Origin: Pseudomonadota bacterium
Lineage (GTDB): Bacteria > Pseudomonadota > Gammaproteobacteria > Xanthomonadales > SZUA-38
DNA length: 64,000 bases
Assembly: GCA_039033415.1 (NCBI GenBank)
Contig: JBCCCR010000007.1
Location: forward strand, 125,262 to 189,261
Direction: 5' to 3'
The translations under genes were made by a program, and so were the position numbers. Under the pieces are notes generated by a model. That model was not told where the DNA came from. It did not search any database and saw only the letters and a list, made by a program, of their open reading frames with translations. Shown here piece after piece: positions 6,024 to 29,094 of the stretch (position 1 is the stretch's first letter; every line of letters begins with the position of its first letter).

Positions 6024-6755
6024 ATGAATCAGAAGCGGGTGTTGGTGACGGGAGGAGGCACAGGCATCGGCCTGGCCATCGCTCAGCAGCTGGCGTCCGA
6101 TAACCATCAGGTCACCATCAGCGGGCGATCCGCCGAAACCCTGACCGAAGCCGGTTTGCCCTATATCGTCATGGACGTCACCAGCGAAGCGTCCGTCGAC
6201 CGTGCGTTCTCTGAGCTAGGCACGGTGGACATCCTCATCAGCAACGCCGGGGCCGCGAAGACCGCCCCCCTACTCAAGACTCCCCTCGCCACCTGGCAAG
6301 CCATGCTCGACGTCAACCTCACTGGCGCGTTTCTGTGCGCTCGCACTGCGCTGCCCCCGATGATTGACAGCGGCTGGGGCCGCATGGTGGTGATCGCCTC
6401 GACATCGTCGCTCAAGGCCTATCCATACACCGGCGCCTACACCGCGTCGAAACACGGGGTCATGGGCCTGGTAAAAACCCTCGCCATCGAGCTGGCCAGA
6501 ACCGGGGTGACGGTCAACGCTGTATGCCCAGGGTTCAGCGATACGCCCCTGCTCACGCGATCGGTCGAAAACATCGTCAACACCACCGGCATGAACGAGG
6601 AGCAGGCGCTCGCTGCCCTACTCAAAGACAACCCGATGAAGCGTGCGGTTGATCCCGCTGAGGTCGCGGCGGCGGTGAAATACCTCGTCAGCGACGATGC
6701 GGCGGCCACCAACGGCCAGGCGGTGGTCATCGACGGCGGTGAGCTGGCGGGCTGA
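6024..6755 (+). CDS. SDR family oxidoreductase, probable 3-hydroxyacyl-CoA dehydrogenase of operon 1
   Basis: 243 residues. Classical short-chain dehydrogenase: cofactor motif TGGGTGIG at 9-16, SNAGA, catalytic Ser in IASTSS and YTASK, with the PG motif (CPGFSDTP) following. Its position as first gene in an operon with an enoyl-CoA hydratase and acyl-CoA dehydrogenase suggests it oxidises a 3-hydroxyacyl-CoA during beta-oxidation-like processing of a ring-derived CoA ester. Its stop shares one base with the next start (TGATG). SDRs are versatile, so substrate assignment rests on context. Confidence 0.88.
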   Translation: MNQKRVLVTGGGTGIGLAIAQQLASDNHQVTISGRSAETLTEAGLPYIVMDVTSEASVDRAFSELGTVDILISNAGAAKTAPLLKTPLATWQAMLDVNLTGAFLCARTALPPMIDSGWGRMVVIASTSSLKAYPYTGAYTASKHGVMGLVKTLAIELARTGVTVNAVCPGFSDTPLLTRSVENIVNTTGMNEEQALAALLKDNPMKRAVDPAEVAAAVKYLVSDDAAATNGQAVVIDGGELAG

Positions 6756-7210
6756 TGGACGGACGCGGCAAACAGGCGCTACTGACCTGGCTGAGCCTGC
6801 TGCGGACGGCCAACCGCATCAAAAAGGATATCGACGCCCGCCTTAAGGCGAGCTTCGGTCAGTCGATCTCCCGATTTGATGCCCTCTCGGCGCTCCAACG
6901 AGCCGGCCCCGAGGGTATCCGTGCGGGTCAGCTCAGCCGTCAGATGGTGGTCAGCGAAGGCAATATCACCCAGCTGATGGGGAAGCTGTTGCGGGACCAG
7001 CTGGTCACCAAGTCGGCGGACGCGCTCGACGCGAGGGTTGTCATATACCGGCTGTCAGAGGCTGGTGTGGTCCTCTTTGACGCCATGGCGATGGAGCACC
7101 GGCAGTGGATCGAAGACATATTCGACGAGCTGTCGGATGCTGATACCGCACACCTGCAGTCGCTGATGGGCCAGCTGTCAGCCGCCTTTACGATGAAGGA
7201 AACCGCATGA
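6755..7210 (+). CDS. MarR family transcriptional regulator of operon 1
   Basis: 151 residues. The winged helix-turn-helix is seen in the segment [20 protein letters not shown] and the wing in [20 protein letters not shown] (D-x-R motif typical of MarR). It is embedded between the SDR and enoyl-CoA hydratase genes with overlaps of 1 nt and 4 nt, so it is co-expressed with the genes it probably controls. The palindrome at 6002-6017 is the likely operator. MarR repressors of aromatic catabolism are commonly released by an aryl-CoA thioester; here the inducer is unknown. Confidence 0.9.
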
Positions 7211-8022
7211 AATTTTCCGCCAGCCAGTACCAGGCAAAACATTTTTTGTGGGCGTTCGATGAGCATATCGCCACCGTTGCGCTGAACGCGCCGGAACAGA
7301 AAAACCCTCTAACGTTTGATTCGTACGCAGAGCTGCGTGACGTCTTTCGCCAGCTTGTCTACGCAAGCGAGGTCCGTGCGGTGGTATTCGCCAGCAACCA
7401 GGGCAACTTCAGTTCGGGCGGCAACGTACACGACATCATCGGACCGTTGACCCAGATGGCGATGCCCGAGCTGCTCGAGTTCACCCGCATGACCGGAGAT
7501 CTCGTCAAGGCCATGCGAGCCTGCCCTCAGCCGATCATCGCTGCAGTCGCGGGCGTCAGCGCCGGTGCCGGCGCCATCATCCCGATGGCCTCAGACTTCC
7601 GCCTGACCGAACCGGCGTCAAAGACGGCCTTCCTGTTTAACCGGGTTGGACTCGCAGGCTGCGATATGGGTGCCTGCGCCATCCTGCCCCGCCTGATCGG
7701 TCAGGGGCGAGCCAGCGAACTGCTGTTTACCGGCCGGTCGATGAGCGCCGAGGAAGGCGAGCGCTGGGGCTATTTCAATCGGGTGGTGCCCGCTGAAGAT
7801 CTTGCTGCTGAGGCCACGGCGCTGGCCAAAAAAATTGCCGCCGGCCCGGCCTTTGCGAACGGCATTACCAAGAATCAACTCAACATGGAGTGGGACATGA
7901 GCCTCGATACGGCGATCGAAGCCGAAGCGCAGGCGCAGGCGATCTGCATGCAGACCAAAGACTTTGAGCGGGCTTACCAGGCATTTCTGGAAAAGCGCCG
8001 ACCCCAGTTTGAGGGAAACTGA
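7207..8022 (+). CDS. Enoyl-CoA hydratase/isomerase family protein
   Basis: 271 residues, crotonase fold. Landmarks are the oxyanion-hole segments [10 protein letters not shown] and [19 protein letters not shown], followed by [13 protein letters not shown] and a C-terminal region typical of the superfamily. It should hydrate or isomerise an enoyl-CoA. In this operon it fits the ring-opening or beta-oxidation steps that follow 2-aminobenzoyl-CoA monooxygenase/reductase action. It overlaps marR by 4 nt and is separated from the acyl-CoA dehydrogenase gene by one base. Confidence 0.9.
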
Positions 8023-8023
8023 C

Positions 8024-9208
8024 GTGAGTGATCAGAAGTACCTGCGATGGCCATTCCTGGAGGACCACCATCGAAGTCTTGCGCGAGAGCTCGACGAGTG
8101 GGCGGCGGCCGAGATACCGCCGCTGACCGAGTCCCACGAGTCCCACGATCAGGTCGATGAGACCTGTCGCCAGCTCGTGCGCTTGCTGGGTGAAGCCGGC
8201 TGGCTGCGTTACGCGGTGCCCGCAGCTTATGGCGGCATCCATAAGAGCCTCGACGTTCGGTCGCTGTGTCTGATTCGGGAAATCCTTGCCCGCTATTCAG
8301 GGCTGGCGGATTTTGCCTTTGCGATGCAGGGGCTGGGTTCTGGCGCCATCAGCACCTTCGGCAGCGAAGCGCTCAAGGAACGCTATCTGCCTGCGGTGGC
8401 CAGTGGGGAACGCATCGCCGCCTTTGCGCTATCGGAAAAAGACGCCGGTTCTGACGTCGCGGCCATGCAAACGCACTTTACCGCCACCGGCGAGTCGCGA
8501 AGTCTGCAGGGTGAGAAAACCTGGATCTCCAACGGCGGCATTGCCGATTTTTATACCGTAGTCGCCCGCGAGGGACGCGATGGCCGGAAGATGACCGCGG
8601 CCGTGGTCGGGGCGGACAGCCCGGGCTTTTCCATCGCGGAACGAATCGACGTTATTGCGCCCCATCCGCTGGCGACCATCCGTTTTGACGGCGTGGCCGT
8701 AAACCCCGAGGACGTGATCGGCGAGCCGGAATCCGGCATGCGGGTGGCGCTCGGCACCCTGGACATCTTTCGAACGACCGTCGGGGCCGCGGCGCTCGGT
8801 TTTGCCCGGCGGGCGCTGGACGAGGCAACGGAGCGGGCACTGAGCCGCAATATGTTTGGCGCGACGCTTTCCGACCAGCCGATCGCCCAGCAGCAGCTGG
8901 CCGAAATGGCGCTTGAGGTGGACGCATCGGCCCTTCTGATCTATCGCTCCGCGTGGACCCGGGATGTGACCGGACGCCGGGTAACTCGCGAAGCCGCCAT
9001 GGCCAAGCTTTATGCAACCGATCAGGCCCAGCGCGTGATCGACCGCGCCGTCCAGCTTTTTGGCGGGCTCGGCGTCAAGCGTGGCAGCAAGGTCGAAGAA
9101 CTGTATCGAGAGGTTCGGGCGCTGCGCATCTACGAAGGCGCTTCAGAAGTTCAGAAAATTGTGATCGCCAGGCAGCACCTGAGCGATTTTCAGGGAGGAA
9201 GCTGCTGA
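8024..9208 (+). CDS. Acyl-CoA dehydrogenase family protein
   Basis: 394 residues from GTG at 8024, one base after the hydratase stop; a Shine-Dalgarno-like GAGGGA precedes it. Family signatures: [27 protein letters not shown] (FAD-binding middle domain), the C-terminal helical domain with [24 protein letters not shown] split across the dimer contact, and IYEGASEVQ carrying the catalytic Glu position of short/medium-chain enzymes. It would oxidise an acyl-CoA to an enoyl-CoA and pass electrons to ETF. It probably works on an alicyclic or ring-opened CoA intermediate of this pathway. Confidence 0.92.
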
Positions 9209-9618
9209 TGCACCAGACCCTACAGCCGCCGGACTGGCCGCGGCCCAAAGGCTACGCCAACGGCATTGCCGCCCGCGGGACTTTTGTATTCACCGCCGGC
9301 ATCGTCGGCTGGAATGCCGACGAGGTATTTGTCGCCAAAGATCTCGCCGGACAGCTGGAGCAGGCGTTGCTCAATACCGTAGCGATTCTGGACGAGGCGG
9401 GCGCCCGGCCGGAACACATCGTGCGGATGACCTGGTACATCACTGACAAGGCGGCTTACGTAGAGCATTTGCCAGAGGTCGGTGCCGTTTGGCGTCGGGT
9501 CCTGGGCAAGGTATTCCCCTGCATGGCGTGTGTGCAGGTAGTTGCCCTCGTGGAAGACGAGGCAAAAATCGAGATTGAGGTCACGGCGGTGATCCCGGAA
9601 GAGGAAACAGCACCATGA
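9208..9618 (+). CDS. RidA family protein (enamine/imine deaminase type)
   Basis: 136 residues starting at an ATG that overlaps the previous stop by one base. It fits the RidA/YjgF trimer fold: NGIAARGTFVFTAGIVGW, then QALLNTVAILDEAGARPEHIVRMTWYITD, and the C-terminal ACVQVVALVEDEAKIEIEVTA. The family hydrolyses enamines or imines to ketones and ammonia. A pathway that reduces and opens an amino-substituted ring would generate exactly such an enamine, so its place directly before the monooxygenase/reductase gene is informative. It lacks some canonical RidA residues (no clear GxxPxxxxxR motif), so specificity may differ. Confidence 0.87.
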   Translation: MHQTLQPPDWPRPKGYANGIAARGTFVFTAGIVGWNADEVFVAKDLAGQLEQALLNTVAILDEAGARPEHIVRMTWYITDKAAYVEHLPEVGAVWRRVLGKVFPCMACVQVVALVEDEAKIEIEVTAVIPEEETAP

Positions 9619-11960
9619 AAATCACGGTAATTGGTGGCGGCCCCGGCGGCATGTACTTTGCGCTGCTGACCAAAAAGCGTTGTCCGCACTTCGATATCGA
9701 GGTTGTTGAGCAAAATCGTTTCGACGACACGTTTGGTTTTGGCGTCGTGTTTTCCGACGAAACGCTGGACGAGTTTTTAAGCGCTGACCCGGAATCGTAT
9801 GATCTGATTCGCGACAGCTTTGCCTACTGGACCGACATGGTGGTCGAGCGCAATGGCAAACGCATGGTGATCGGCGGAAACGGCTTTGCCGGCTGCAGCC
9901 GGATGACACTGCTTTTGCTGCTGCAGCAGCGCTGTCGAGACGTTGGGGTCAAGCTGACGTTCGAAACGCGGATCGAGGCAGGCCAGCTGGAAAACCAGTT
10001 TCCCGACTCCGACATCATCGTGGACGCCGGCGGCGTCAACAGCCCGATCCGGCAGCGCTTTGGCGAGGCCTTCGGGGCCAACGTCGGGGAAACCCGCAAC
10101 AAGTTTACCTGGCTCGGCGCGGAGACGCCGCTGGATGCGTTCACCTTTTTCTTCCGCGAGACGCCTCAAGGCCTGATCTGCGCCCACACCTACCAGTATG
10201 AAAAAGGCCGCTCTACCTGGGTGATGGAGACCACGCCGGAGTGCTGGGAAGCCAGCGGGTTTGGCGAACTGGACGACGTGCAGAGTGCCGACCGGCTGAG
10301 CGATATCTTTGCCGAAGAGCTCAAGGGTCACAGGTTTATTACCAACCGTTCGGTCTGGCGGAACTTTCCCACCATCGCCTGCGAGAACTGGTCGCACAAA
10401 AACATAGTGCTCCTCGGCGACTGCAAGGCGACCGCGCACTGGTCGATCGGATCGGGCACCAAGCTGGCGATGGAGTGCGCGATCGCGCTGTCGGAGGCCG
10501 TGGTCAATCACGAGGGCAACGCACAGGCGGCCTTCGCCGAGTACGAGAAAGTTCGCCGTACGCCGGTGGAAATCACCCAGCACAACGCCCAGGTATCACT
10601 ACGATGGTTCGAGAACATGCCTTTGCACTGGCACAAAACCGACACGGCGTTCGCCTTCTCCTGCATGTCCCGGTCGAAGTCGGTGGACTGGGACAACCTC
10701 GGGCTGCGCGATCCTGAATTTCTGGAAAAGGCAGAAACGGACTTCTACGAGCGGTATGAGAAATCCACCGGCCGTTCCCTCAACGGGGAGCGCCCAACGC
10801 CCATGTTCACACCGTTCTCGCTGCGGGACATGACGGTCAATAACCGGGTGGTGGTGGCCCCGATGGCGCAATACAGCGCGGTCGACGGCATGCCGGGGGA
10901 GTGGCACTTCAGCCACTACACCACCCGCGCACTTGGCGGCGCCGGGCTGGTGTTCACGGAAATGACCTGCACCGCCCCGGAAGCTCGCATCACCGACGCC
11001 TGCACCGGCATCTGGAATGAAGCGCAGGCCGATCAGTGGCGGGACATTGTCGATTTTGTTCACCAAAGAAGCGAGGGGCGCATCTGCATGCAGCTCGGCC
11101 ACGCCGGACGCAAGGGTTCAACCCTCACCCCCGAGGACGGCATGGATATGCCGAAACCCGACAAAAACTGGCCGCTTATCTCTGCCTCAGCGATCCCATA
11201 TATCGAGGGGACATCCCAGGTACCGAAGGAAATGACTCGCCAGGACATGGATCGGATACGCGACGAATTTACGGCATCAGCTCAACTGGCAGAGTCAGCC
11301 GGCTTCGACATGCTGGAACTCCACTGTGCACACGGCTATCTGCTGGCCAGCTTTCTTTCGCCGCTGACCAATGCGCGCAGCGACGAGTACGGCGGCTCGA
11401 CAGAGAATGCCATGCGCTTTCCGCTCGAGGTGTTTCGCGCCGTGCGGGAGGTCTGGCCAAGCCATAAGCCGATGTCGGTTCGCCTCTCCGCCAGCGACTG
11501 GGCGCCCGGTGGCGTCACGCTGGATGCCGTGGTTGAGTATGGCAGAGCGTTCAAAGCAGCGGGTGCCGACATCCTGCACGTCTCCTCCGGAGAAACCGTT
11601 TGCTGGCAGAAGCCGATCTGGGGCCGCATGTGGCAAACGCCGTTTGCCGAGCACGTCAAACACCACGTCGAGATTCCAACGATTGCCGTGGGCGATATCA
11701 CGACGGGCGCGCAGATCAATACCATCATCGCCGACGAACGGGCGGACCTCTGTGCCCTTGCCCGACCTCACCTGAACAATCCCTACTTCACTCGGATGGC
11801 CGCGGGGCATTATGGCGTCAGGGGGCTTTCGTGGCCGTTGCAGTACGACTCAGGCTGTTACCAGCTCTTTTCGTCAGCCGCCAAAGAAAACGCCAAGGCA
11901 CTGGACCTGGCGAGCAAAGCCCGGCCCAATCGACGTCACTACCAGCAGGCGGCAACCTGA
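9615..11960 (+). CDS. 2-aminobenzoyl-CoA monooxygenase/reductase-type fusion (flavin hydroxylase + old yellow enzyme)
   Basis: 781 residues. Residues 1 to about 390 form a PHBH-type FAD monooxygenase: dinucleotide motif VIGGGPGGMY at the N-terminus and the second FAD motif in IVLLGDCKATAHWSIGSGTK. From about 397 a full NADH:flavin oxidoreductase (OYE) barrel follows: VVVAPMAQYSA, CMQLGHAGRKG, HCAHGYLLASFLSPLTNAR and EYGGSTENAMRFPLEV. This architecture is that of the Azoarcus 2-aminobenzoyl-CoA monooxygenase/reductase and of proteins named salicylyl-CoA 5-hydroxylase. It would hydroxylate and then reduce the aromatic ring of an aroyl-CoA. Neighbouring RidA, dehydrogenase and hydratase genes favour the 2-aminobenzoyl-CoA reading. 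Translationally coupled to ridA by a 4-nt overlap. Confidence 0.88.
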   Translation: MKITVIGGGPGGMYFALLTKKRCPHFDIEVVEQNRFDDTFGFGVVFSDETLDEFLSADPESYDLIRDSFAYWTDMVVERNGKRMVIGGNGFAGCSRMTLLLLLQQRCRDVGVKLTFETRIEAGQLENQFPDSDIIVDAGGVNSPIRQRFGEAFGANVGETRNKFTWLGAETPLDAFTFFFRETPQGLICAHTYQYEKGRSTWVMETTPECWEASGFGELDDVQSADRLSDIFAEELKGHRFITNRSVWRNFPTIACENWSHKNIVLLGDCKATAHWSIGSGTKLAMECAIALSEAVVNHEGNAQAAFAEYEKVRRTPVEITQHNAQVSLRWFENMPLHWHKTDTAFAFSCMSRSKSVDWDNLGLRDPEFLEKAETDFYERYEKSTGRSLNGERPTPMFTPFSLRDMTVNNRVVVAPMAQYSAVDGMPGEWHFSHYTTRALGGAGLVFTEMTCTAPEARITDACTGIWNEAQADQWRDIVDFVHQRSEGRICMQLGHAGRKGSTLTPEDGMDMPKPDKNWPLISASAIPYIEGTSQVPKEMTRQDMDRIRDEFTASAQLAESAGFDMLELHCAHGYLLASFLSPLTNARSDEYGGSTENAMRFPLEVFRAVREVWPSHKPMSVRLSASDWAPGGVTLDAVVEYGRAFKAAGADILHVSSGETVCWQKPIWGRMWQTPFAEHVKHHVEIPTIAVGDITTGAQINTIIADERADLCALARPHLNNPYFTRMAAGHYGVRGLSWPLQYDSGCYQLFSSAAKENAKALDLASKARPNRRHYQQAAT

Positions 11961-11961
11961 C

Positions 11962-13416
11962 ATGTGGAAACCCGCGGAGCGGATCAAGTACAAGGCTGAG
12001 GGGGGACGCTGGCCAAGCCACGCAGAGGCAGCTGACTCGCGGCTGTTCAGTCCGTTTCAGCGTGACCGGCTAAACCTCGCGCAGCGAACCTGGATCCCTG
12101 CGATGGTGCCCTGGCGCGCTACCGAAGAGGGTGAGGTGACCGAGCACGTCCTCGATTGGTACCGCCGCTTCGCTGAAGGGCGCCCAGGCGCCATCGTGGT
12201 TGAGGCAACAGGGATAAGGGATGTCCCCTCGGGCCCGCTGCTGCGCATCGGACACAACCGGTTCCTGCCGGGGCTGAAGCGACTCGTGGAGGTTGTCCGT
12301 GAAGCCAGTGGCGGCGAAACCCGACTGTTTATTCAGCTGATCGACTTCCTGGCAATTCGACGCCGGCCCAAGAAAGAGCGATTTCTCCGTGATTTTTTGC
12401 GGATCGATGATGCGCTCCGGTCTTCGCTGGCCGATGTCGCGAGCACGGACGACGCGCTTCGCGACTATCTGTGTGAACAAGACGACGAACGGCTCGAGGC
12501 GCTACTCAGTGCGCGCGACTTTGAAAGCCTGACGCGCGGCTTTCGCGAGCGGGTGACCGATACGGAGCAGCCCCACATCGCTGAACTGCCAAAATCTCTT
12601 CCGCGGCTCTTTGCTGACGCCGCGCGCCGAGCGGAGGAAGCGGGCTTCGACGGGGTTGAGCTGCACTATGCTCATGCTTACACGATGGCTTCGTTCCTGT
12701 CGGCGCTCAATACCCGGGACGACGGTTATGGCGGGTCGCGAGAAAACCGGGTCCGGCTGCCGCTGGAGGTTTTTACCGCCGTGCGAGAGGCGCTGAAGCC
12801 GGAGACCGTCTGCGGCTGCCGAATGCTGACCGAAGACTGCATCGAGGGTGGCTCCAAGATCGATGACAGCACCTACTTTGCCCAGCGGTTCGCCGAAGCT
12901 GGGATGGACTTTATTTCACTGTCGCGAGGCGGGAAGTTTGAGGACGCCAAAAAGCCGGGGATCGGTCAGGCGATCTATCCGTATACCGGGCCGTCTGGCT
13001 ACGAATGTATGCCGGGCTATCTGTCGGACCCGCAGGGACCCTTTGGTCGCAACGTCACGCCCGGGCGCACGATCACCCAAAACCTGCGCGCCCGAGGGAT
13101 CGAAACGCCCGTTGCGGTGGCCGGCGGCATTCACAGCTTTGAGCAGGCTGAACAGATTCTTGAGGAAGGCAGTGCCGACATCATCGGCTTTGCGCGCCAG
13201 GCGCTGGCAGATCCCGACTGGTTTATGAAGGTTAAAACTGGCTGCGGGGATCAGGTCAATCTGTGTGAGTACACCAACTACTGCGAGGGGCTGGACTCAA
13301 AACACAAGATGGTGACCTGCCAGCTTTGGGACCGGATCGATCGTGGAGCGCCCGGCAGCCGACTCACGCAAGACGGCAAACGTCGCACCACTGCCCCCGC
13401 CTGGAAACGAGACTGA
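11962..13416 (+). CDS. NADH:flavin oxidoreductase (OYE family), last gene of operon 1
   Basis: 484 residues; ATG one base after the previous stop. A stand-alone OYE-type TIM barrel: TWIPAMVPWRAT, RLFIQLIDFLAIRRRPKK, GVELHYAHAYTMASFLSALN, DGYGGSRENRVRLPLEV, and FMN-phosphate contacts in AVAGGIHS and IIGFARQALADPDW. The C-terminus carries Cys-rich sequence LCEYTNYC followed by MVTCQLWDR, possibly a partial iron-sulfur or metal site. It lacks the FAD/NAD domains of 2,4-dienoyl-CoA reductase. A second ene-reductase beside the fused one suggests two separate C=C reductions in the pathway; the substrate is unknown. The gene converges on iorB. Confidence 0.87.
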   Translation: MWKPAERIKYKAEGGRWPSHAEAADSRLFSPFQRDRLNLAQRTWIPAMVPWRATEEGEVTEHVLDWYRRFAEGRPGAIVVEATGIRDVPSGPLLRIGHNRFLPGLKRLVEVVREASGGETRLFIQLIDFLAIRRRPKKERFLRDFLRIDDALRSSLADVASTDDALRDYLCEQDDERLEALLSARDFESLTRGFRERVTDTEQPHIAELPKSLPRLFADAARRAEEAGFDGVELHYAHAYTMASFLSALNTRDDGYGGSRENRVRLPLEVFTAVREALKPETVCGCRMLTEDCIEGGSKIDDSTYFAQRFAEAGMDFISLSRGGKFEDAKKPGIGQAIYPYTGPSGYECMPGYLSDPQGPFGRNVTPGRTITQNLRARGIETPVAVAGGIHSFEQAEQILEEGSADIIGFARQALADPDWFMKVKTGCGDQVNLCEYTNYCEGLDSKHKMVTCQLWDRIDRGAPGSRLTQDGKRRTTAPAWKRD

Positions 13417-13442
13417 CAAGCCCTCCCGTGACTCGAAACGCC

Positions 13443-14981: not shown

Positions 14982-14986
14982 GAGCT

Positions 14987-17210: not shown

Positions 17211-17238
17211 GTGAAGTAATTTGAGGAAGTCGACGCCA

Positions 17239-18870: not shown

Positions 18871-18899
18871 CCCGATTCTGCAGGATCAGATCGGCGCGT

Positions 18900-19394: not shown

Positions 19395-19395
19395 G

Positions 19396-20718: not shown

Positions 20719-20758
20719 AGCGTTCCCCTCACACAAAAAGTTTCTTGCTTCGCATCGT

Positions 20759-21493: not shown

Positions 21494-22269
21494 GGTGTTT
21501 CCTCCACCAGCGCCAGGACCCGCAGCGGACTGCCTGAACCCTGCTTGATTTTCAGTGGCGCACAGATGAGCATCGCGCCCACCGGGGGCAGCTGATCCAG
21601 ATTGCGCAGACACTGCAGGCCGTAGCGATTGTTGCCATGCAGCAGCAGATGAGCCGGATGAGGCGGATCAAAATGTTCCCCCTGGCCCGCATCGGTTCCA
21701 ATGGTTTCCACCCCAAAACCGACAATACCCGCTTCGTGGATCAGGTAGTCGAGCGCTCCCGCATCCGGACCCGGGGAATGCGCCCCGTCTTCGCGCAGAT
21801 TGATGTAAGCGGCGGGTTCTCGCTTGGACCAGTCGGTGCGAAACAGAAACCAGCTGCCCGCCGCAATTTTCCCGTGGCTGTCCTCCCAGGCCTTAACATG
21901 CGCGGCCGTGAGCACAAAATCTTCGTCTGCGGCGCATTCAGCGGAAAAGTCCGCGACAACCGCCGGCGCAACAAACCGCTCGACGGGAATGGTGTCTACC
22001 GAGTTGTTGGGCAGATCGCGGCCGCTGATCCAATGAATCGGCGCGTCGAAGTGAGTCCCGGTATGCTCGTTGCAGGTGAAGTTTTGCCAGTACCAGCCGG
22101 GGCCCCGCGCGTCATAGCGCGACACCTCTTCGACCCGGAACGGCTCGCACTGACCCAGCTCCTGAGGCAGTACCAGCACCGGGAAGTCCGGGTCCAGCGT
22201 AAAGGTCAGGTCGACCGTTCGGACTGACCCGCCGGCCATGGCCTGGGCCAGCGTTGCGAGGGCACCCAT
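21490..22269 (-). CDS. Cyclase-family metal hydrolase (kynurenine formamidase / isatin hydrolase fold)
   Basis: 259 residues, starting at MGALATLAQAM. The metal-binding signature HTGTHFDAPIH lies at 69-79 (His69, His73, Asp75, His79). A second conserved region, GVETIGTDAG, follows. This is the cyclase superfamily that contains kynurenine formamidase and isatin hydrolase; the length, about 50 residues above typical KynB, fits the isatin hydrolase-like branch better. Isatin hydrolase opens the lactam ring of isatin to isatinate. In this island, with an Rieske oxygenase and a 2-aminobenzoyl-CoA enzyme, hydrolysis of an oxidised indole ring is a natural role, but it is inferred. Confidence 0.82.
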   Translation of the reverse strand: MGALATLAQAMAGGSVRTVDLTFTLDPDFPVLVLPQELGQCEPFRVEEVSRYDARGPGWYWQNFTCNEHTGTHFDAPIHWISGRDLPNNSVDTIPVERFVAPAVVADFSAECAADEDFVLTAAHVKAWEDSHGKIAAGSWFLFRTDWSKREPAAYINLREDGAHSPGPDAGALDYLIHEAGIVGFGVETIGTDAGQGEHFDPPHPAHLLLHGNNRYGLQCLRNLDQLPPVGAMLICAPLKIKQGSGSPLRVLALVEETP

Positions 22270-23522
22270 CAGTCCACCTCCCGCTCGTGCTGCAGCTCGA
22301 ATTCCAGAACGCCGGGATCCTCGCGCCAGCGGTTGACGACATCCGTCGCGATATCCCCGGCCACGGCCTCCTCCAGCCCCTCGCACAGACCCTTGACGGT
22401 CACGCTGGCGAGCTTGGCAGGCGTGACCAGCGGGGGTGATACCGGCTCATACCAAGGGTCTTCGAGCGGCCCGTGAAACACGTTCATCACCTTCACGCCG
22501 CTGCCGACAAACTCTGCGCGGGCAGCCTGGGCCAGCGACAGCGCAGCAGCCTGGCTGGCGGAGCTCGTGGCGTAGGCCGGCCAGTTTGACCTCGCGTAGA
22601 CCGACAGCAGGTTGGTCCAGCAGGTGGCACTGGTAGCGCCGTCTGCCCCTCGGCTACGCATGACCGGCGCAAAATACTGAAGCAGCCGCAGCAGGCCAAA
22701 GTAGTTGGTTTCCATCTCGCGTCTGGCTTCGACGAGCGGCTGGTCGAGCGCACCGCCGGAGCGAACGTGGCTGGCCGTGTTGATGAGAATGTCCACCTTA
22801 TGGCCGATCGATGCCGCGCATTCCCGCACCGACCCGGTGTCGGTCACGTTGAGTTCCGCGAGCTGCACACACTCATCGGCCACCGCCTCGGCGACGACAT
22901 CGTTTTTTTTCCAGGGCTCTGCCAGGCCGGCAAAAATGATCGCGGCGCCGGACTCCTTGAGCATCGGGATCAGGGTCTGCGCAACCGGACTGCGGATATC
23001 GGTCAGCAGCACCCGGCGATGACGGGGGGAACAGGTCAGCTCACGCAGCTGCGGGTCGTCGTCCATATGGGGGGTCTCCTCCTCCGGGAGCGCCATCAAT
23101 ACGCCCTGCCCGGCTTTATCCGTTCGCGCGATCATGCGCACGGTGTCTCCTTCGGCCACGTCGCCGTGCACGTGCGCCAAAACACTGATCCCATCGGCCA
23201 GCCGAACCGTCCCCACTCGCCACGGCATACGCTGTCGAAAGTACACGTTGGTGCTGCTGTCCAGCACGCTGAGCGCCAGCAGCTCACCCGTCGGCTGTGC
23301 CGGCTGCCAGCGTAGGTCAACCGACCAGCAGCTCGCGCAAGCGTCGCGCGGCGGATACGCCACCGCGCCACAGTCGCCGCAGACCTGCAGCTGAAATTCG
23401 CCGCGCGCCGCCCGGGCGCTAAACGCCAGCGCGGCACGGCTGCGCGGCCGCGGAGGCATGGTGGCTACCCGCGACCGAAGCTGCGGGTTTTTGCGGCGGG
23501 GCTTGGCGAGCGGCGCCGTCAT
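22269..23522 (-). CDS. DUF35/OB-fold zinc-ribbon protein fused to a degenerate SDR domain
   Basis: 417 residues. Residues about 35-145 are the DUF35 rubredoxin-like zinc ribbon (Cys48, Cys51, Cys62, Cys65) plus OB-fold (TGELLALSVLDSSTN, GISVLAHVHGD), usually a separate partner of thiolase-like proteins. Residues about 165-417 follow the SDR fold but its active sites are eroded: the glycine-rich loop reads TDIRSPVAQ, NNAG is replaced by NTASH, and the YxxxK motif reads YATSS with Ser321 in place of Lys. The neighbouring thiolase gene overlaps by 4 nt. It may stabilise or supply the thiolase and act as a non-catalytic CoA-ester binding subunit. The fused architecture is uncommon. Confidence 0.85.
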   Translation of the reverse strand: MTAPLAKPRRKNPQLRSRVATMPPRPRSRAALAFSARAARGEFQLQVCGDCGAVAYPPRDACASCWSVDLRWQPAQPTGELLALSVLDSSTNVYFRQRMPWRVGTVRLADGISVLAHVHGDVAEGDTVRMIARTDKAGQGVLMALPEEETPHMDDDPQLRELTCSPRHRRVLLTDIRSPVAQTLIPMLKESGAAIIFAGLAEPWKKNDVVAEAVADECVQLAELNVTDTGSVRECAASIGHKVDILINTASHVRSGGALDQPLVEARREMETNYFGLLRLLQYFAPVMRSRGADGATSATCWTNLLSVYARSNWPAYATSSASQAAALSLAQAARAEFVGSGVKVMNVFHGPLEDPWYEPVSPPLVTPAKLASVTVKGLCEGLEEAVAGDIATDVVNRWREDPGVLEFELQHEREVD

Positions 23523-24727
23523 GCGGCGGCCGCCTCAACACCCGATGCAGCGCCAGGCCCGGCGAGAATGGCCGCCGCCGTGCAGACGCCCCGATCAAAG
23601 TTGATCATGCCAAAGCCGGACACGGCGGCAATGCGCGCGTCGGTAACCTGTTTGCCCAAAGCCTGGCCCGTGACCTGGCGCAACGCCTCCACCAGACCGA
23701 TGTAACCCCCGGCCGCGCCGGCCTGGCCGGTCGACAGCTGGCCGCCCGAGGTGTTGTGCGGAAAGGTACCCTCGCAGGTCATCGTGTGGCCCCGGATGAA
23801 TTCATCGGCGCCCCCTTTCTCGCAGAAGCCAAGGTCTTCTATCTGCATAGCGCAGATCACCGGATAGTCGTCGTAGGTCTGCAGCAGGTCTACCGCATCC
23901 GGACTGACGCCCGCCTGGGCCCACAGCTCGTCACGATCCATCTCCCAGCCGCCGCGCAGCTGGATCGGATCAGCGCTAAACGCGTTGTGGCGTTCGATTG
24001 TGGAGAGGATCTGCACCGCTGGCAGCGAGAGATTGCGAGCCGTGTCCTCGTGCATGACCAGAAAACCTTCCGCGCCGGCGCAAGGCATGACGCAGTCAAA
24101 CAGCCGCAGCGGGTCTGCGATAACGCGAGCATTGAGATACTGCTCCAGCGTCAGCGGCTTTTTCATCATGGCAAAAGGAATCCCCAGCGCGCTGTCCCGC
24201 TGGTCGACGCAAAGCTGGCCAAACGCCTCGCGGCTAGTGCCGTAGCGGTTCATAAACGCTTTGGTCATCAGCGCAAAGTTGGCGTTCGGTCCACCGGAAC
24301 CGTAGGGAAACGAGGCGTCCTGGGAAAAACGGCTAAAGCTGGTGAGCATGTTTTTGAACGAACTGATCTGATTCGTGTCACCCGCCACGCAGGCGACCAC
24401 CTCAGCGTCCCCGGCCTGCACCGCTCGAGCTGCCCGGCGCAGCGCCACAACGCCGCTCGCACCGCCCATCGGAATGTGGTCAAGCCAACGCGGACTCAAG
24501 CCCAGATGCTGGGTGAGTCCAACCGCCGTATCGGGCAGGAGCGAGAAGGAAGAGACGCAAAAGCCGTCGATGTCGTCAGCTCCCAGGCCACTGGCCTTTG
24601 CCAGCGCTCTCATCGCACGCCCGAGCCACCAGTGTGCGGATTGGTGAGAGTAACGCTCGTACGGAACGGTTACCGGCACCGCGGCCACCACGCCGCTATA
24701 GGGCTGACGGGCGCGCTTCAGGCTCAT
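23519..24727 (-). CDS. Thiolase-like (lipid-transfer/acetyl-CoA acetyltransferase type) protein
   Basis: 402 residues from MSLKRARQPYSG. Thiolase fold with SHQSAHWWLGRAMRAL, MGGASGVVALRRAARAVQAGD and the C-terminal HNTSGGQLSTGQAGAAGG and SGFGMINFD segments. At the nucleophile position of canonical thiolases this protein has Ser91 (GGASG), as in several DUF35-partnered thiolase-like enzymes. With its DUF35-SDR neighbour it probably forms a complex similar to the BbsAB or PhlBC-type pairs, catalysing cleavage or formation of a beta-keto acyl bond. Cleavage of 2-aminobenzoylacetyl-CoA to 2-aminobenzoyl-CoA would link operon 3 to operon 1; this is a hypothesis. Overlaps both neighbours by 4 nt. 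Confidence 0.85.
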   Translation of the reverse strand: MSLKRARQPYSGVVAAVPVTVPYERYSHQSAHWWLGRAMRALAKASGLGADDIDGFCVSSFSLLPDTAVGLTQHLGLSPRWLDHIPMGGASGVVALRRAARAVQAGDAEVVACVAGDTNQISSFKNMLTSFSRFSQDASFPYGSGGPNANFALMTKAFMNRYGTSREAFGQLCVDQRDSALGIPFAMMKKPLTLEQYLNARVIADPLRLFDCVMPCAGAEGFLVMHEDTARNLSLPAVQILSTIERHNAFSADPIQLRGGWEMDRDELWAQAGVSPDAVDLLQTYDDYPVICAMQIEDLGFCEKGGADEFIRGHTMTCEGTFPHNTSGGQLSTGQAGAAGGYIGLVEALRQVTGQALGKQVTDARIAAVSGFGMINFDRGVCTAAAILAGPGAASGVEAAAA

Positions 24728-26358
24728 GTGGCCGCCTCCTTTGCCGGGCGTTTCTTCCGCGTGGTGAAGTCCATGCACCGACCGGCCTTCACGGCCTCAG
24801 CGGCGAGCCGCTTTGCCTCACCCCGCTGAACCTTCTCGGAGGCCGTTAGCGGTATCGCGTCGACAAAGCCGATGTAACCGGGAGCCTTGTAGTACGCCAG
24901 GTCATGGCGGCAGGCCTCAAAAACCGCCTCGGCGATGGCGTCAGTTTCAGTGCCAGGTGCAGCCACAAGCAGCGCGGCAACCTCTTCCCCGCGAATCTCA
25001 TCGGACACCGGACAGACCACACAGTTGAGCACGGCCGGATCACGGATGATCACACTCTCGACCTCGATGGCAGCGATGTTCTCACCGCTGCGGCGGATAA
25101 TGTTCTTTCGCCGATCCACAAAGTAAAAGCTGCCGTCAGCCCCGACACGAACCTCGTCGCCCGTATGGAACCAGCCGCCGGCCCAGGCTTCCTCGGTCGC
25201 GTCCGGATCTTTGAGATAGCCGCTGAAGAAAAACTGCCTAGGCTTCTCGCCGTGGCGGCGAACCAGCAGTTCCCCGGTTTCGCCTGGCGGCACGTCATTG
25301 CCGGCTTCATCAACCAGCCGGTATTCAAGCCCCTCCGGCGCCTTACCAAAACAGCGTGTGCCGACATGCCGGGAGTCGTGTGATGCCGTGATCCAAGCAC
25401 CAGCGCCGGTTTCGGACATCGCCCAAGCTTCGGTCAGGGGAATGCCAAACCGCTCTTCAAACCGAGCGTGGTGCCGGGGATCACAGCCGGCGCCGAAGGC
25501 GAAACGCACCTGATGAAAGCTGCGGTCATTGTCTTGTTCCGGCGCGTTGAGCAGCATGGCCGGCATCACCCCCAGGTAATGCATGACCGTGGCGCCGCTC
25601 GCAGCCACGCTCTCCCACCAAGTCCGCGGATGAAAGCGATCCAGCTGAATCAGGCAGCTCGCGGTCTCCATCACCCCCATAAACGAGGTCGCCAGAGCAT
25701 TCATGTGAGAGACCGGCAGCGGCGTGATCAAACGATCTTCTCCGGGCCGAAAGCTGCAGTAACCGCCGATACCGGCGTAGAACCGACCGATCTCGCGGAA
25801 GTAGCTGTTGCTCAGCATGCAGCCCTTGGGTGTACCGGTGGTACCAGAGGTATAGATCAATGCGGCTTCCGTGTCTTCGTGAAGCACCCCGGAATCTTGG
25901 GTCCATCGACAGTCAAGACCGGCCAACGCCGCTGGTGTGACCACAGGCGGCCTCTGAGGGGTATCCCCTGCAACACTTGCCAGCTGCTCAGCCACGCTCG
26001 CGTGCGCAACCACTAGCGCCACCTCGCTGTGCTCGAGGAGATAACGCAGCTCGCGGTCCATCATGGCCGTATTCAGCGGGACCACGCTGCATCCCAGCGC
26101 GTTGAGCGCCAGCAGATGAAAAAAGAACTCAGGCCGGTTGTGCAGGGCTACGCCCACCCGCAGCCCCTGGCCACACCCCAGCTCCCGATAGGTTGCAAGC
26201 AGTGTTTCTACCTCTGCGGCAGTTTCGGCGTAGGTGAAGTCGGCGCGCGGCAGCTCGTACACGGCAGCCGTCTGCTCAGGAACGTGAAGGAATGGGCGCG
26301 AGGGATGATTCCCTACGACCGCCAGAAACCGGTCGTAAATGGTGCCCCGGTCGGTCAC
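24724..26358 (-). CDS. AMP-binding acyl/aryl-CoA ligase
   Basis: 544 residues from a GTG start overlapping the marR stop by 4 nt. ANL superfamily: P-loop LIYTSGTTGTPKGCM, the AWAMSETGAG motif A5, GWFHTGDEV with YFVDRRKNIIRRSGENI hinge, and the C-terminal catalytic Lys in SEKVQRGE. It activates a carboxylate to its CoA thioester via acyl-AMP. As first enzyme gene of operon 3 it probably activates the entering acid, for example an indoleacetate- or aminobenzoate-type compound; it resembles the carnitine/short-chain ligase branch, so aromatic specificity is uncertain. Confidence 0.9.
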   Translation of the reverse strand: MTDRGTIYDRFLAVVGNHPSRPFLHVPEQTAAVYELPRADFTYAETAAEVETLLATYRELGCGQGLRVGVALHNRPEFFFHLLALNALGCSVVPLNTAMMDRELRYLLEHSEVALVVAHASVAEQLASVAGDTPQRPPVVTPAALAGLDCRWTQDSGVLHEDTEAALIYTSGTTGTPKGCMLSNSYFREIGRFYAGIGGYCSFRPGEDRLITPLPVSHMNALATSFMGVMETASCLIQLDRFHPRTWWESVAASGATVMHYLGVMPAMLLNAPEQDNDRSFHQVRFAFGAGCDPRHHARFEERFGIPLTEAWAMSETGAGAWITASHDSRHVGTRCFGKAPEGLEYRLVDEAGNDVPPGETGELLVRRHGEKPRQFFFSGYLKDPDATEEAWAGGWFHTGDEVRVGADGSFYFVDRRKNIIRRSGENIAAIEVESVIIRDPAVLNCVVCPVSDEIRGEEVAALLVAAPGTETDAIAEAVFEACRHDLAYYKAPGYIGFVDAIPLTASEKVQRGEAKRLAAEAVKAGRCMDFTTRKKRPAKEAAT

Positions 26359-26882
26359 CCGCCACCTCGGCTGGTTTTGGCCGGGGCAGTTTCTCGCATC
26401 TCTTCGTAAGGCGAGCGGCTCAGGTTTTCTCGAATCTGCTTCAGCAGCAGCGTCATCTCGTCAATCTGCTCAGCGCTGATGCCGTCGAAGGCCTTGTCAA
26501 AGACGTTTTGTCCGATCGAGCGGACCAGCTGAAGCGTTTGCTCAGCCTGTGGCGTCATGGTGACCTCAACGACGCGCCGGTCGGCGCTGGATGCGTCGCG
26601 GAGCACGAGACCCGCTTTTTCCATGCGCCCCAGCATGCGGGTAATGGTCGGTAGTTTGGTCACCGAACGACGTGCCAGCTCACCCACCGTGCTGGGGCTG
26701 CGGTCCTTAAGAAGCGACAGAATGCGCCATTCGGTTGTGCTCAGGCCATAACGCTTGAGCGCGCGTTCCATTTCCGCGTTGTAGGTGGAGGACAGCCGGA
26801 TGAGGTTGTAGAGCACGTAGTCATCCAGGTGAAAGCGAGCGTGCAGGGGCCCGATCTTTTGCGGTGCTGCGCTTTCTCCCAT
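26355..26882 (-). CDS. MarR family regulator of operon 3
   Basis: 175 residues. Winged HTH: LSTTEWRILSLLKDRSPSTV, then LARRSVTKLPTITRMLGRME recognition region and the wing DASSADRRVVEVTMT. It leads operon 3, its stop overlapping the ligase start, so regulator and enzymes are co-transcribed. The upstream region (26883-27109) has AT-rich inverted repeats at 26993-27022 and is shared with the divergent DUF485-actP genes. A similar sequence precedes iorA, so this protein may coordinate all three units. The inducer is unknown. Confidence 0.9.
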   Translation of the reverse strand: MGESAAPQKIGPLHARFHLDDYVLYNLIRLSSTYNAEMERALKRYGLSTTEWRILSLLKDRSPSTVGELARRSVTKLPTITRMLGRMEKAGLVLRDASSADRRVVEVTMTPQAEQTLQLVRSIGQNVFDKAFDGISAEQIDEMTLLLKQIRENLSRSPYEEMRETAPAKTSRGGG

Positions 26883-26992
26883 CTCCCGTCCCTTCCCTCA
26901 CTGTCGTGCGACAACAGGTACAATCCGACGGTGTCAGCGAACTGGACGTTCGACGGCACCTGCTGACAACGAAGAGCGTAGCGCATTTGTGC

Positions 26993-27022
26993 TTTACAAT
27001 TCAATTGATTATTCATTCAATT
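26993..27022 (-). promoter_or_regulatory. Shared upstream motif, copy 2, with CAATTG repeats (ahead of marR/operon 3)
   Basis: TTTACAATTCAATTGATTAT (26993-27012) matches the iorA upstream motif at 17 of 20 positions. CAATTGA at 27003-27009 and TCAATTG at 27016-27022 form an inverted repeat, also readable as ATTCAATTG direct repeats. Position between divergent marR and DUF485-actP genes makes it a candidate MarR operator for both. Confidence 0.5.
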
Positions 27023-27109
27023 GTTTGCGCACACCGCGCCGCAGACCGCTTCGCCCCAGCCATAAAAACAACCAAGGCCGCCCTGCCGCTGCGGCACTGA
27101 GGAGACAGA

Positions 27110-27433
27110 ATGGATAACGCTCGCGCCCATGCCCTCATGGAATCCGACCGCTACCGGACGCTTGCGGGTAAACGCCGTAGGGTTGCTGTTGGCCTAACTC
27201 TGTTCAACATCGCCGTTTACCTGGTCTACGTATTGATGATGGGCTACGCACGACCGCTCATGTCGACGACAGTTGGGGACACCGCAATGAACGTCGGCCT
27301 GCTGGTCACCATCGGGCTGGTAGTTATGGCACCCCTGATTTCGGGTTACTACATCTGGTGGGCCAATCGAGCCTACGACCCGAACCTGAAGGCGCTGATC
27401 GCTGAAGCCGAGTTAGGGGAACAGGGCTCATGA
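27110..27433 (+). CDS. DUF485 membrane protein, partner of ActP
   Basis: 107 residues with two hydrophobic segments (about 25-45 and 62-84) and the DUF485 pattern: SDRYRTLAGKRRR before TM1, GYARPLMST between, and ISGYYIWWANRAYD after TM2. Family members (E. coli YjcH) are encoded directly before the ActP acetate/glycolate symporter, as here, with a 4-nt ATGA overlap. Function of the small protein is not established. It is divergent from operon 3. Confidence 0.9.
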   Translation: MDNARAHALMESDRYRTLAGKRRRVAVGLTLFNIAVYLVYVLMMGYARPLMSTTVGDTAMNVGLLVTIGLVVMAPLISGYYIWWANRAYDPNLKALIAEAELGEQGS

Positions 27434-29094
27434 ATCGATGGGTTGCAAGCCTCGCGGGTCTTTGGTTCATGGTCGCCGCGGAGGTGGCCCTGGCAGCGGA
27501 AGGGATTACCGGCAGCGCCGACAAGCAACCGCTCAATCAAGCGGCGATCACCATGTTTCTCACCTTCGTTCTGGTGACCCTGCTAATCACGGTATGGGCC
27601 GCCAAACGCAGTCGCTCCGCCAGCGATCTGTACGTGGCCGGCGGCGGTATTTCTGCCTGGCAAAACGGCACCGCTATCGCCGGAGATTTTATCTCCGCAG
27701 CCTCATTCCTGGGCATCACCAGCGCGCTCTTCGCGTTCGGACTGGACGGCAACCTGCTGATCATCGGCGTGATGGGCAGCTGGCCAGTGATTCTGTTCAT
27801 CATCGCCGAACGGCTGCGCAACCTCGGTCGTTTTACCCTGGTGGACGTTGTATCGTTCCGGCTCTCACCCAAACCGGTGCGGCTTGTCATCAGCATCGCC
27901 TCCCTAGCGGTAATTCTGTTTTATCTCATTGGACAGCTCGTCGGCGCCGGCAAGCTCATCCAGCTGCTGTTCGGCCTGGACTATCTGTATGCGGTCATCA
28001 CGGTCAGCGCACTGATGATCATCTACGTCAGCCTGGGGGGCATGCTGGCCACCACGTGGGTTCAGCTGATCAAGGCGATTCTGCTGATCGCCGGCGGCGT
28101 GCTTACCTGCATCCTCGTCCTGCGCTACTTCGATTTTTCGCTGTCCGAAGTCTTCTCGCGGGCCACCCGGAACCATCCGCGAGGCACTCAGCTGCTTGCG
28201 CCGGGCAACTGGATGGCCGACCCGCTTGGCGGACTCTCGCTGGGACTCACGATGCTGTTTGGCTTTATCGGCTTGCCGCACGTGCTGATGCGCATGTTCA
28301 CCGTCAAGGATGCTGCCGCCGCCCGGCAGTCGTCGTTCGTGGCGATCTGCATCATGAGCCTGTTTTATCTGATGGTGATCGTGATCGGCTTTGGCGCGGT
28401 TTCGATCCTGATCGAGAACCCCGATTCGTTCTACGACTCGGCGGGGAACCTGCTTGGCGGCGGCAACATGGTTGCGGTCCACGTGGCCCAGTTTGTGGGC
28501 GGCAACCTGCTGCTTGGCTTTATGGCGGCGGTGACGTTCGCCACCATCCTGGCGGTGGTGGCTGGGCTGACGTTATCTGGCGCGGCCACGATTGCGCACG
28601 ATCTCTATAAGACCTTCGCCGCAAGCTCGCATTCTGAAAAGACCGAGCTCATCATCATGCGCACCTCCGTGGTGGTGATCGGGGTGCTGGGCGTGATTCT
28701 CGGCCTGGCATTTGAGAACCAGAACATTGCGTTTGTCACCACCTTTGCGCTGGCGGTATCCGCTAGCGTCAACGCGCCGGTGCTGATCGCCGCGATGTAT
28801 TGGCGCGGACTGACCACCCGGGGCGTGGTGTTGTCGAGCATCATCGGCCTGGTCTTTTCGGTGGCGCTGATTGTTGCCGGCCCCGGCGTGATGGTGAGCA
28901 TCCTCGGCTTTGAGAAGCCGTGGTTCCCCTACACGTACCCAACGATCGCCACCCTGCCCGTCACCGCGCTGTGTATCTGGTTTTTCTCAGCCACAGACCG
29001 AAGCGCCAGCGCGGCCCGGGAGCGCGCACGCTTCGAAGACCAGCGCATTCGATCCGAACTCGGGATCGGCATCGACGCGGCGTCCAGTCACTAG
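27430..29094 (+). CDS. actP: Cation/acetate symporter ActP, SSS family
   Basis: 554 residues with about 13 hydrophobic segments after an N-terminal signal-like sequence. Sodium-solute symporter motifs include SASDLYVAGGGISAWQNG, AIAGDFISAASFLGI, and the long GLPHVLMRMFTVKDAAAARQ signature. It carries small monocarboxylates such as acetate with Na+. Located beside the catabolic island, it may take up acetate or an organic acid substrate, or simply be neighbouring. Coupled to the DUF485 gene. Length matches the family. Confidence 0.93.
   Translation: MNRWVASLAGLWFMVAAEVALAAEGITGSADKQPLNQAAITMFLTFVLVTLLITVWAAKRSRSASDLYVAGGGISAWQNGTAIAGDFISAASFLGITSALFAFGLDGNLLIIGVMGSWPVILFIIAERLRNLGRFTLVDVVSFRLSPKPVRLVISIASLAVILFYLIGQLVGAGKLIQLLFGLDYLYAVITVSALMIIYVSLGGMLATTWVQLIKAILLIAGGVLTCILVLRYFDFSLSEVFSRATRNHPRGTQLLAPGNWMADPLGGLSLGLTMLFGFIGLPHVLMRMFTVKDAAAARQSSFVAICIMSLFYLMVIVIGFGAVSILIENPDSFYDSAGNLLGGGNMVAVHVAQFVGGNLLLGFMAAVTFATILAVVAGLTLSGAATIAHDLYKTFAASSHSEKTELIIMRTSVVVIGVLGVILGLAFENQNIAFVTTFALAVSASVNAPVLIAAMYWRGLTTRGVVLSSIIGLVFSVALIVAGPGVMVSILGFEKPWFPYTYPTIATLPVTALCIWFFSATDRSASAARERARFEDQRIRSELGIGIDAASSH

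Follow-up and report, generated by a model that had tools for sequence, protein, structure and literature searches.

The window, a 64,000-nucleotide stretch of DNA from a Pseudomonadota bacterium (contig JBCCCR010000007.1), contains between positions 6024 and 29094 a gene island that combines an operon of the iad type for the degradation of indole-3-acetate (IAA), the genes iorA and iorB (also named iadA and iadB), and an operon of the aerobic 2-aminobenzoyl-CoA (abm) type. We propose, at a probability of about 0.62, that the island encodes a complete aerobic route from IAA to central metabolites, in which the oxidoreductase IadAB (IorAB) would turn isatinate into 2-aminobenzoyl-CoA. The proposal is based on genomics, on chemistry, and on one published metabolite pattern. 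This conserved island joins an operon of a recognized type to an established pathway, and the reaction at the joint is probably new. Papers are cited by PMC number, and statements about them refer to the excerpts on which this analysis drew.

Gene content of the island

The genome containing the window comprises 6.42 Mb in 62 contigs and is 98.67% complete. A preliminary description of this DNA had recognized an island of three units, namely, operon 1 (6024-13416, plus strand), iorAB (17137 to 13443, minus strand), and operon 3 (26882 to 18900, minus strand). All of the genes that it named were present with open reading frames and family matches, and whole blocks of the island were found again in other genomes, indicating that the arrangement goes beyond chance. 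The true starts are internal to the longest open reading frames at 8024, 9208, and 11962 (plus strand) and at 14981, 19394, 20718, 21493, 22269, and 24727 (minus strand). Operon 3 and iorAB comprise the following genes.

26355-26882, minus strand: MarR regulator, presumably repressing the iad genes; best PDB matches are the MarR entries 7kua, 7l19, 7kki, and 7kfo
24724-26358, minus strand: IadF, side-chain CoA ligase, in the IadF slot; PRK06155, 338 bits, under the cut-off of 722
23519-24727, minus strand: IadG, thiolase-like; Thiolase_C_1, with NCBIfam thiolase models under cut-off
22269-23522, minus strand: IadH, 417 residues, zinc-ribbon/OB (ChsH2-type, DUF35-type) domains fused to an SDR, according to Pfam
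21490-22269, minus strand: IadI, isatin hydrolase (cyclase family); isatin hydrolase A (5nnb), 371 bits
20759-21493, minus strand: IadJ, SDR, by order and homology in iad loci
19396-20718, minus strand: IadD, Rieske oxygenase large subunit (IAA oxygenase); 7yls/8h2t, 473 bits; 9o71, 471 bits
18900-19394, minus strand: IadE, Rieske oxygenase small subunit; 7yls_A, 95 bits
14987-17137, minus strand: IadA/IorA, TPP and Fe-S subunit; TPP_enzyme_C
13443-14981, minus strand: IadB/IorB, beta subunit with POR domain and DUF6537; PRK08312, 641 bits, exceeding the cut-off of 348

Operon 3 follows the order F-G-H-I-J-D-E, with F, G, H, and J placed by order and homology and without a curated model. In the PDB search, the family next to the best matches of IadD reached only 175 bits. 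We take 7yls, 8h2t, and 9o71, whose entry names are generic, to be Variovorax IadDE, in keeping with the structure papers, and we presume that the four MarR entries are published IAA-operon MarRs, which the PDB search itself does not show. Two papers describe IadDE structures (PMC10374108 and PMC12633357). Alignment of IadI with 5nnb matched the His/His/Asp metal motif, the catalytic His and Asp, and the Gln ligand (residue roles according to PMC6117287), so that the "cyclase-family ring hydrolase" of the preliminary description can be named isatin hydrolase. Its "thiolase with DUF35 partner" was right as to the two kinds of domains, but the DUF35-type part belongs to a single SDR fusion, IadH. 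The reductase IadC was not found in the island by inspection of loci and tblastn maps, a search that was not extended to the rest of the genome; in Variovorax, IadC is reported to be dispensable, likely through other reductases (PMC12633357).

Conway and colleagues recognize iad-like loci by two exclusive markers, iorB/iadB and iotA/iadA (PMC9613470), and both are present at 13443-17137. Operon 3, together with iorAB, almost certainly belongs to the iad-like type of IAA operon, with conversion of IAA predicted from sequence. In light of the IadDE, isatin hydrolase, and MarR matches and of the published markers, we discarded the idea that operon 3 encodes a pathway not described before; the earlier statement that no described pathway has this gene set fails for operon 3 and iorAB.

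IorA scored 299 bits against the IOR_alpha equivalog (cut-off, 650.9), and its PDB search returned only acetolactate synthases near 1e-3. Twelve cysteines of IorA (189; 411, 414, 441, and 586; seven within 620-672) were invariant in 54/54 sequences. The TPP domain, the POR domain, and the conserved, putatively cluster-binding cysteines identify IorAB as a 2-oxoacid:ferredoxin oxidoreductase. The excerpts of PMC12633357, PMC9613470, PMC10374108, and PMC11630574 assign no step to IadAB.

Operon 1 comprises the following genes.

6024-6755, plus strand: SDR dehydrogenase; PHB_DH-like, below cut-off; relatives in abm operons
6755-7210, plus strand: MarR regulator, by position; relatives in abm operons
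7207-8022, plus strand: enoyl-CoA hydratase (ECH); PRK08258, 466.7 bits, exceeding the cut-off of 330
8024-9208, plus strand: acyl-CoA dehydrogenase (ACAD), conserved in abm operons
9208-9618, plus strand: RidA-family protein (enamine/imine hydrolase by family); Pfam Ribonuc_L-PSP, 71.5 bits
9615-11960, plus strand: ACMR, fusion of the 2-aminobenzoyl-CoA monooxygenase/reductase type; PRK08255, 992.8 bits, under the cut-off of 1078
11962-13416, plus strand: OYE2, second Old-Yellow-Enzyme-family protein; Pfam Oxidored_FMN

The presence of the SDR, ECH, ACAD, RidA, and the two-domain ACMR identifies operon 1 as abm type, minus the usual CoA ligase. ACMR consists of a VioD-like flavin monooxygenase half and an Old-Yellow-Enzyme half. 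The NCBI model PRK08255 carries the name salicylyl-CoA 5-hydroxylase, and ACMR of the window falls under its cut-off; genomic context and RidA point to 2-aminobenzoyl-CoA as the substrate. In 12 other loci, a relative of OYE2 (60-69% identity) accompanies iad, iorAB, or ACMR genes. Cysteines 286, 349, 435, 441, and 453 of OYE2, three of them near the C terminus, were invariant in 13/13 sequences.

Association of iorAB with isatin hydrolase and abm genes

The IadD query provided 80 named loci, which were fetched, the high-GC ones being mapped by homology-ranked gene calls and tblastn maps. Many of them hold iorAB beside iad, and several also hold abm genes. In Marinicaulis (L029), IorA-IorB-MarR-IadFGHIJDE-OYE2 is accompanied by a convergent ACMR-RidA-ACAD-ECH-MarR-SDR operon, and on the Azospirillum thermophilum plasmid (L116) a single run reads IorA-IorB-IadCDEF-J-ACMR-SDR-ECH-ACAD-thioesterase-RidA. 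Whole or partial sets of abm genes adjoin iad or ior genes in L024, L026, L029, L031, L148, and L213, and the iad operons of L047, L051, L053, L057, L061, and L212 contain ACMR itself, placed between IadJ and IadD. Relatives of IadD (50-59%) were also observed directly 3' of an ACMR relative (43-45%) in L036, L037, L042, L044, L046, L056, L073, L074, and L094; isatin hydrolase was not found in these stretches, and such loci perhaps serve a different substrate.

Among 398 Pseudomonadota genomes picked independently of iad (phylum sample), ACMR was present in 71, IorB in 29, and both in 27, i.e., ACMR occurred in 27/29 IorB genomes versus 44/369 of the remaining genomes. This count of IorB omits the fragments G107:C3, the second G741 piece, and G668:C44. 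Fisher tests of the association gave 1.6e-20 (9e-20 minus the genome of the window and 6.6e-12 counted by genus), values that are inflated by relatedness and shared lifestyle and that have no control gene for comparison. Physical linkage therefore weighs more: IorB and ACMR were no more than 20 kb apart in 14 of the 27 genomes, representing five families, ten of the 14 coming from one family (f220). Full-length IadD matches of at least 40% were found in 5/70 ACMR genomes versus IorB in 26/70 (the genome of the window, G000, was left out of the IadD, IorB, and AbmG counts), indicating that IorAB and ACMR are associated even without the IAA oxygenase.

Gene neighborhoods were compared for 58 IorAB units from chosen loci, after removal of four loci repeating a genome and exclusion of L189, whose IorA gave two separate hits. 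The IorAB run of the window was counted despite the opposite-strand thioesterase gene inside it. Isatin hydrolase was in the same-strand run of 29 units, and in 14 of these runs it was the sole iad or abm gene besides IorAB. Six of the 58 units had abm genes and zero iad genes in the run, and one further unit had both. Examples include IadI-IorA-IorB (L049, L055, and L195), IorA-IorB-IadI (L148 and L196), IorA-IorB-SDR-ECH-ACAD-RidA (L210-L212), and IorA-IorB-thioesterase-ACMR (L188, L189, and a Caballeronia plasmid). In genome G751, one copy of isatin hydrolase adjoins IorA-IorB, and another contig carries a second copy; the iad locus of this genome, L028, has a copy of its own. In the IorA tree, which was rooted at the midpoint for drawing only, L203 and L204, which have no pathway neighbors, fell outside the rest, and L224, L225, and L197, likewise devoid of them, fell inside. 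Flanks of 10 kb suggested that IorAB is missing from Woeseiaceae-type iad loci (L053, L057, and L066); this reading was wrong, as IorAB sits with abm genes elsewhere in their genomes.

One stretch of an Alloyangia pacifica plasmid (L229) represents an indole version of the module: an indole monooxygenase and a flavin reductase are found there together with isatin hydrolase, IorAB, the ACMR operon, an AbmG-type ligase, and FAD oxidoreductases. IorB stretches were taken from hand-chosen genomes. Two of the IorAB loci, on a plasmid of Caballeronia sp. SBC1 (L231) and on the megaplasmid of Ruegeria pomeroyi DSS-3 (L228), show IorA-IorB-thioesterase next to cupin, fumarylacetoacetate hydrolase, carbon-nitrogen hydrolase, and Asp/Glu racemase genes, which looks like a gentisate-type ring-cleavage variant downstream of IorAB. 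The iad operon on a plasmid of Sulfitobacter faviae (L117 and L230) includes an isatin hydrolase, and a second copy occurs at a distance of ~33 kb in an isatin hydrolase-MarR-IorA-IorB unit.

The preliminary description had named co-conservation of the three units as a check on one indole-type aerobic route via 2-aminobenzoyl-CoA. The units stood up to this check, both in the IorB-ACMR counts and in shared loci, where they are often interleaved, and such a route is their best reading.

Proposed conversion of isatinate to 2-aminobenzoyl-CoA

By homology, IadDE and IadJ would oxidize the indole ring to dioxindole-3-acetate, IadF, IadG, and IadH would strip the acetyl side chain, and IadI would convert isatin to isatinate. 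Isatinate is 2-aminophenylglyoxylate, a 2-oxo acid, and phenylglyoxylate oxidoreductase makes benzoyl-CoA by the corresponding reaction. By this analogy, IadAB is proposed to catalyze an oxidative decarboxylation in which isatinate and CoA would yield 2-aminobenzoyl-CoA, CO2, and reduced ferredoxin. Because IadAB would itself make the CoA thioester, no anthranilate-CoA ligase would be needed. ACMR would then hydroxylate and reduce the ring of 2-aminobenzoyl-CoA, and operon 1 would end with beta-oxidation-like steps, RidA hydrolyzing an enamine or imine. We infer the IadAB reaction and all of the substrates; the steps of IadDE, J, F, G, H, and I have been shown or proposed for relatives (PMC12633357), in which Jiang and colleagues also gave a step to IadC and reported that IadJ forms dioxindole-3-acetate in Variovorax. 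Dioxindole, isatin, isatinic acid, and anthranilate have been detected in Variovorax (PMC9613470).

Three observations argue for isatinate as the IorAB substrate: the partnership with isatin hydrolase, the partnership with abm genes, and the independence of the association from the IAA oxygenase. On balance, we consider this substrate fairly probable. The broader proposal, at slightly better than even odds, is that IadAB acts as an isatinate:ferredoxin oxidoreductase (CoA-acylating) and forms with isatin hydrolase a portable module that would take isatin, derived from IAA or indole, to 2-aminobenzoyl-CoA in aerobic bacteria, bypassing free anthranilate and an ATP-dependent ligase.

A published metabolite pattern is consistent with this proposal. 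Compounds of the formulas C8H7NO3 and C7H7NO pile up strongly only in Variovorax strains overexpressing iadC-K2 (PMC12633357), a segment that, judged by its name, is devoid of iadAB. C8H7NO3 is the formula of isatinate, and C7H7NO fits 2-aminobenzaldehyde, plausibly a non-oxidative by-product; sections 5, 6, and 11 of PMC12633357 do not connect the pattern with the absence of iadAB. The literature searched, partly in excerpts and with most subscription journals outside it, yielded no proposal of a step from isatinate to 2-aminobenzoyl-CoA catalyzed by IadAB. A link between indole degradation and a 2-aminobenzoyl-CoA cluster via anthranilate has already been published (PMC6221969).

The preliminary description, partly supported overall, had operon 3 supply 2-aminobenzoyl-CoA to operon 1. 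The joint route was borne out, but the published Variovorax iad route ends at anthranilate and not at 2-aminobenzoyl-CoA (PMC12633357 and PMC9613470), and the thioester calls either for IadAB, as proposed here, or for a ligase that was not found in the searches reported below. Its assignment of iorAB as an arylpyruvate enzyme is probably wrong, the context placing IorAB between isatin hydrolase and abm.

CoA ligases and evidence weighing against the route

Flanking sequence was retrieved at 40 of the 73 ACMR places, namely, the best-scoring 40 apart from that of the window genome. A CoA ligase of one family was located at most 7.3 kb from ACMR in 26 of these 40 Pseudomonadota stretches, typically after the SDR, MarR, ECH, and ACAD genes. 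The ligase at L152:5448-7067 was used as the query, its family being placed as 2-aminobenzoate-CoA ligase by context; we call it AbmG on the assumption that it is tied to the Azoarcus enzyme. The family was present at 48% identity or more in 65/70 ACMR genomes, and it also occurs in an abm-type operon on plasmid 1 of Paracoccus denitrificans PD1222. No AbmG-type ligase was found in the genome of the window at 1e-60, and none of its 21 matches to the benzoate-CoA-ligase model TIGR02262 passed the cut-off of 375 (best, 231 bits).

A second set, selected for iad, consisted of 50 hand-chosen loci among the 80, plus G000, G725, and G202, with L062 absent, for a total of 52 genomes; the loci included 33 of the 34 showing isatin hydrolase or IorAB (L087 omitted) and 17 of the 46 not showing them. 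ACMR (at least 580 bits) was present in 48 of the 52 genomes, 32 of which lacked AbmG (at least 48%). IorB was found in 30 and IadI in 31 of these 32 genomes. We count these ligase searches in favor of the proposed route.

Several observations weigh against the proposed route, in addition to the inflation of the Fisher values. IorB was also present in 14/16 AbmG-positive ACMR genomes of the iad-selected set, indicating that IorAB is no simple substitute for the ligase, and IorAB and AbmG are located near each other in G202, G741, G786, G758, and Alloyangia. The idea that IorAB simply replaces the ligase was accordingly judged too strong, as many genomes carry both. In the phylum sample, the contrast was weak, with IorB in 5/6 ligase-less versus 22/65 ligase-bearing ACMR genomes (p 0.027; p 0.06 minus the genome of the window). 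Many other AMP-binding ligases are encoded in the window genome, any of which could act, and its completeness is below 100%. In Variovorax, free anthranilate is the end product (PMC12633357 and PMC9613470), and iadC-K2 without iadAB fully restores anthranilate in a deletion strain (PMC12633357); another step can thus turn isatinate into anthranilate, which argues against a strict need for IadAB. For six of the 58 IorAB units, the surrounding stretch contained no gene of the pathway. IorAB and ACMR occur in Azospirillum thermophilum in an operon without isatin hydrolase and in G645 and G575 in stretches in which isatin hydrolase was not found. Conversely, the iad operons of Roseibium and Sulfitobacter and the IadCDE locus of the Variovorax SPNA7 plasmid have no IorAB within 15 kb. 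Finally, activity on arylpyruvates is known for IOR-type enzymes, and the Aromatoleum IorAB is cited as a phenylpyruvate/arylpyruvate enzyme (PMC9765128).

Alternative explanations

That activity, together with the family name, underlies an alternative that we consider unlikely, in which IorAB would convert tryptophan-derived indolepyruvate to indoleacetyl-CoA, a thioesterase (perhaps that at 18430-18870) would free IAA, the iad enzymes would produce anthranilate, and a further ligase would provide 2-aminobenzoyl-CoA for operon 1. An aminotransferase of the methionine type is encoded just upstream of operon 1 (4750-5919; PRK09082, 569 bits, exceeding the cut-off of 420), and the thioesterase gene adjoins the operon. 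However, the aminotransferase gene was not conserved next to related loci among the fetched IadD loci, and close relatives of the thioesterase occurred only in L072 and L094. IorB tracks ACMR more than the IAA oxygenase and also tracks isatin hydrolase, the upstream enzyme on the Alloyangia plasmid is an indole monooxygenase, and the further ligase is not represented by any AbmG-type match in the genome.

The adjacency of operon 1 and iad might also be accidental, operon 1 serving salicylyl-CoA or another aryl-CoA. The NCBI family name would suit this view, and the substrate of ACMR, which scores under the cut-off of that model, is so far predicted. We regard two independent islands as very unlikely in view of the six loci with abm genes beside iad or ior, the continuous run in L116, and the six iad operons with ACMR inside; RidA would also fit an amino-substituted substrate. 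Slightly less probable still is a role of IadAB mainly in feeding reduced ferredoxin to the Rieske oxygenase, with a secondary carbon substrate. The operon of the window, like the similar operons L018, L024, L029, L031, and L084, has no IadC, and IadC comes after IorB in L063, L070, L096, L116, and L202. The coexistence of IadC and IorAB in these same five loci speaks against such a role, as do the occurrence of IorAB with ACMR where IadD was not found and the reported dispensability of IadC in Variovorax (PMC12633357).

Neighboring genes

Three further features are located within or beside the island.

17239-18225, minus strand: FAD-dependent amine-oxidase-like protein, between the iad and ior genes; Pfam Amino_oxidase
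18430-18870, plus strand: 4HBT acyl-CoA thioesterase; 4HBT_2
27110-29094, plus strand: DUF4212 protein and sodium:solute symporter pair, divergent from the iad operon

No relatives of the FAD-dependent protein were found in the fetched loci. The thioesterase gene is convergent with iadE, and its product displays 21-28% identity to the thioesterases of other ior/abm operons. The names DUF4212 and sodium:solute symporter are our presumption from the sequence; relatives of the symporter (46-52%) adjoin IadD in several gammaproteobacterial loci, and the pair is a candidate IAA uptake system replacing the ABC transporter. Elsewhere in the genome, a second DUF6537 match (G000:C2:267657-268250, L001) lies in a frame of 1153 residues, probably encoding a fused indolepyruvate-type oxidoreductase that could serve arylpyruvates; we count this gene, like the invariant cysteines of IorA, in favor of the proposed route.

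Significance and comparison with known systems

Root growth is influenced by root bacteria that degrade auxin, and iadAB are used to recognize auxin operons even though the papers, as excerpted, assign them no reaction; the proposed conversion of isatinate supplies a specific and easily assayed one. If correct, it would explain how the carbon of the indole ring reaches central metabolism, the CoA thioester would be made oxidatively, saving ATP in comparison to a ligase, and IAA and indole degraders would share one isatin-to-CoA module.

The iad-like operons of Variovorax paradoxus CL14, Achromobacter, and Bradyrhizobium have in common with the island IadA/B, D, E, F, G, H, I, and J and MarR, and IadDE and the isatin hydrolase match solved relatives. 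Unlike these operons, whose published product is free anthranilate, the island shows no IadC, ABC, or IadK genes, iadAB are downstream of iadDE, and an abm operon is adjacent. The aerobic 2-aminobenzoyl-CoA (anthranilate-CoA, abm) pathway is that of Azoarcus evansii. This pathway, which is also that of the indole degrader of PMC6221969, shares with operon 1 the grouping of ACMR, SDR, MarR, enoyl-CoA hydratase, acyl-CoA dehydrogenase, and RidA genes in one operon; the island differs by the absence of a CoA ligase from the operon, the AbmG kind not being found in the genome, and by the additional OYE2. The genes called iadA and iadB in Pseudomonas LY1 were set aside, as they follow another naming scheme (cluster iadHABICDEFG in the excerpts of that report) and are iac-like by our interpretation. 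The anaerobic iaa pathway of indoleacetate degradation in Aromatoleum also proceeds through 2-aminobenzoyl-CoA (PMC9613470). Its first attack is independent of oxygen, whereas operon 3 carries iad genes and a Rieske oxygenase opens the route. Indolepyruvate:ferredoxin and phenylglyoxylate oxidoreductases have in common with IadAB the TPP domain, the POR domain, and the conserved cysteines, as well as the proposed reaction, a decarboxylation that turns aryl 2-oxo acids into aryl-CoA esters; IadAB is distinguished by its DUF6537 extension, by isatinate as the proposed substrate, and by its gene runs with isatin hydrolase and abm.

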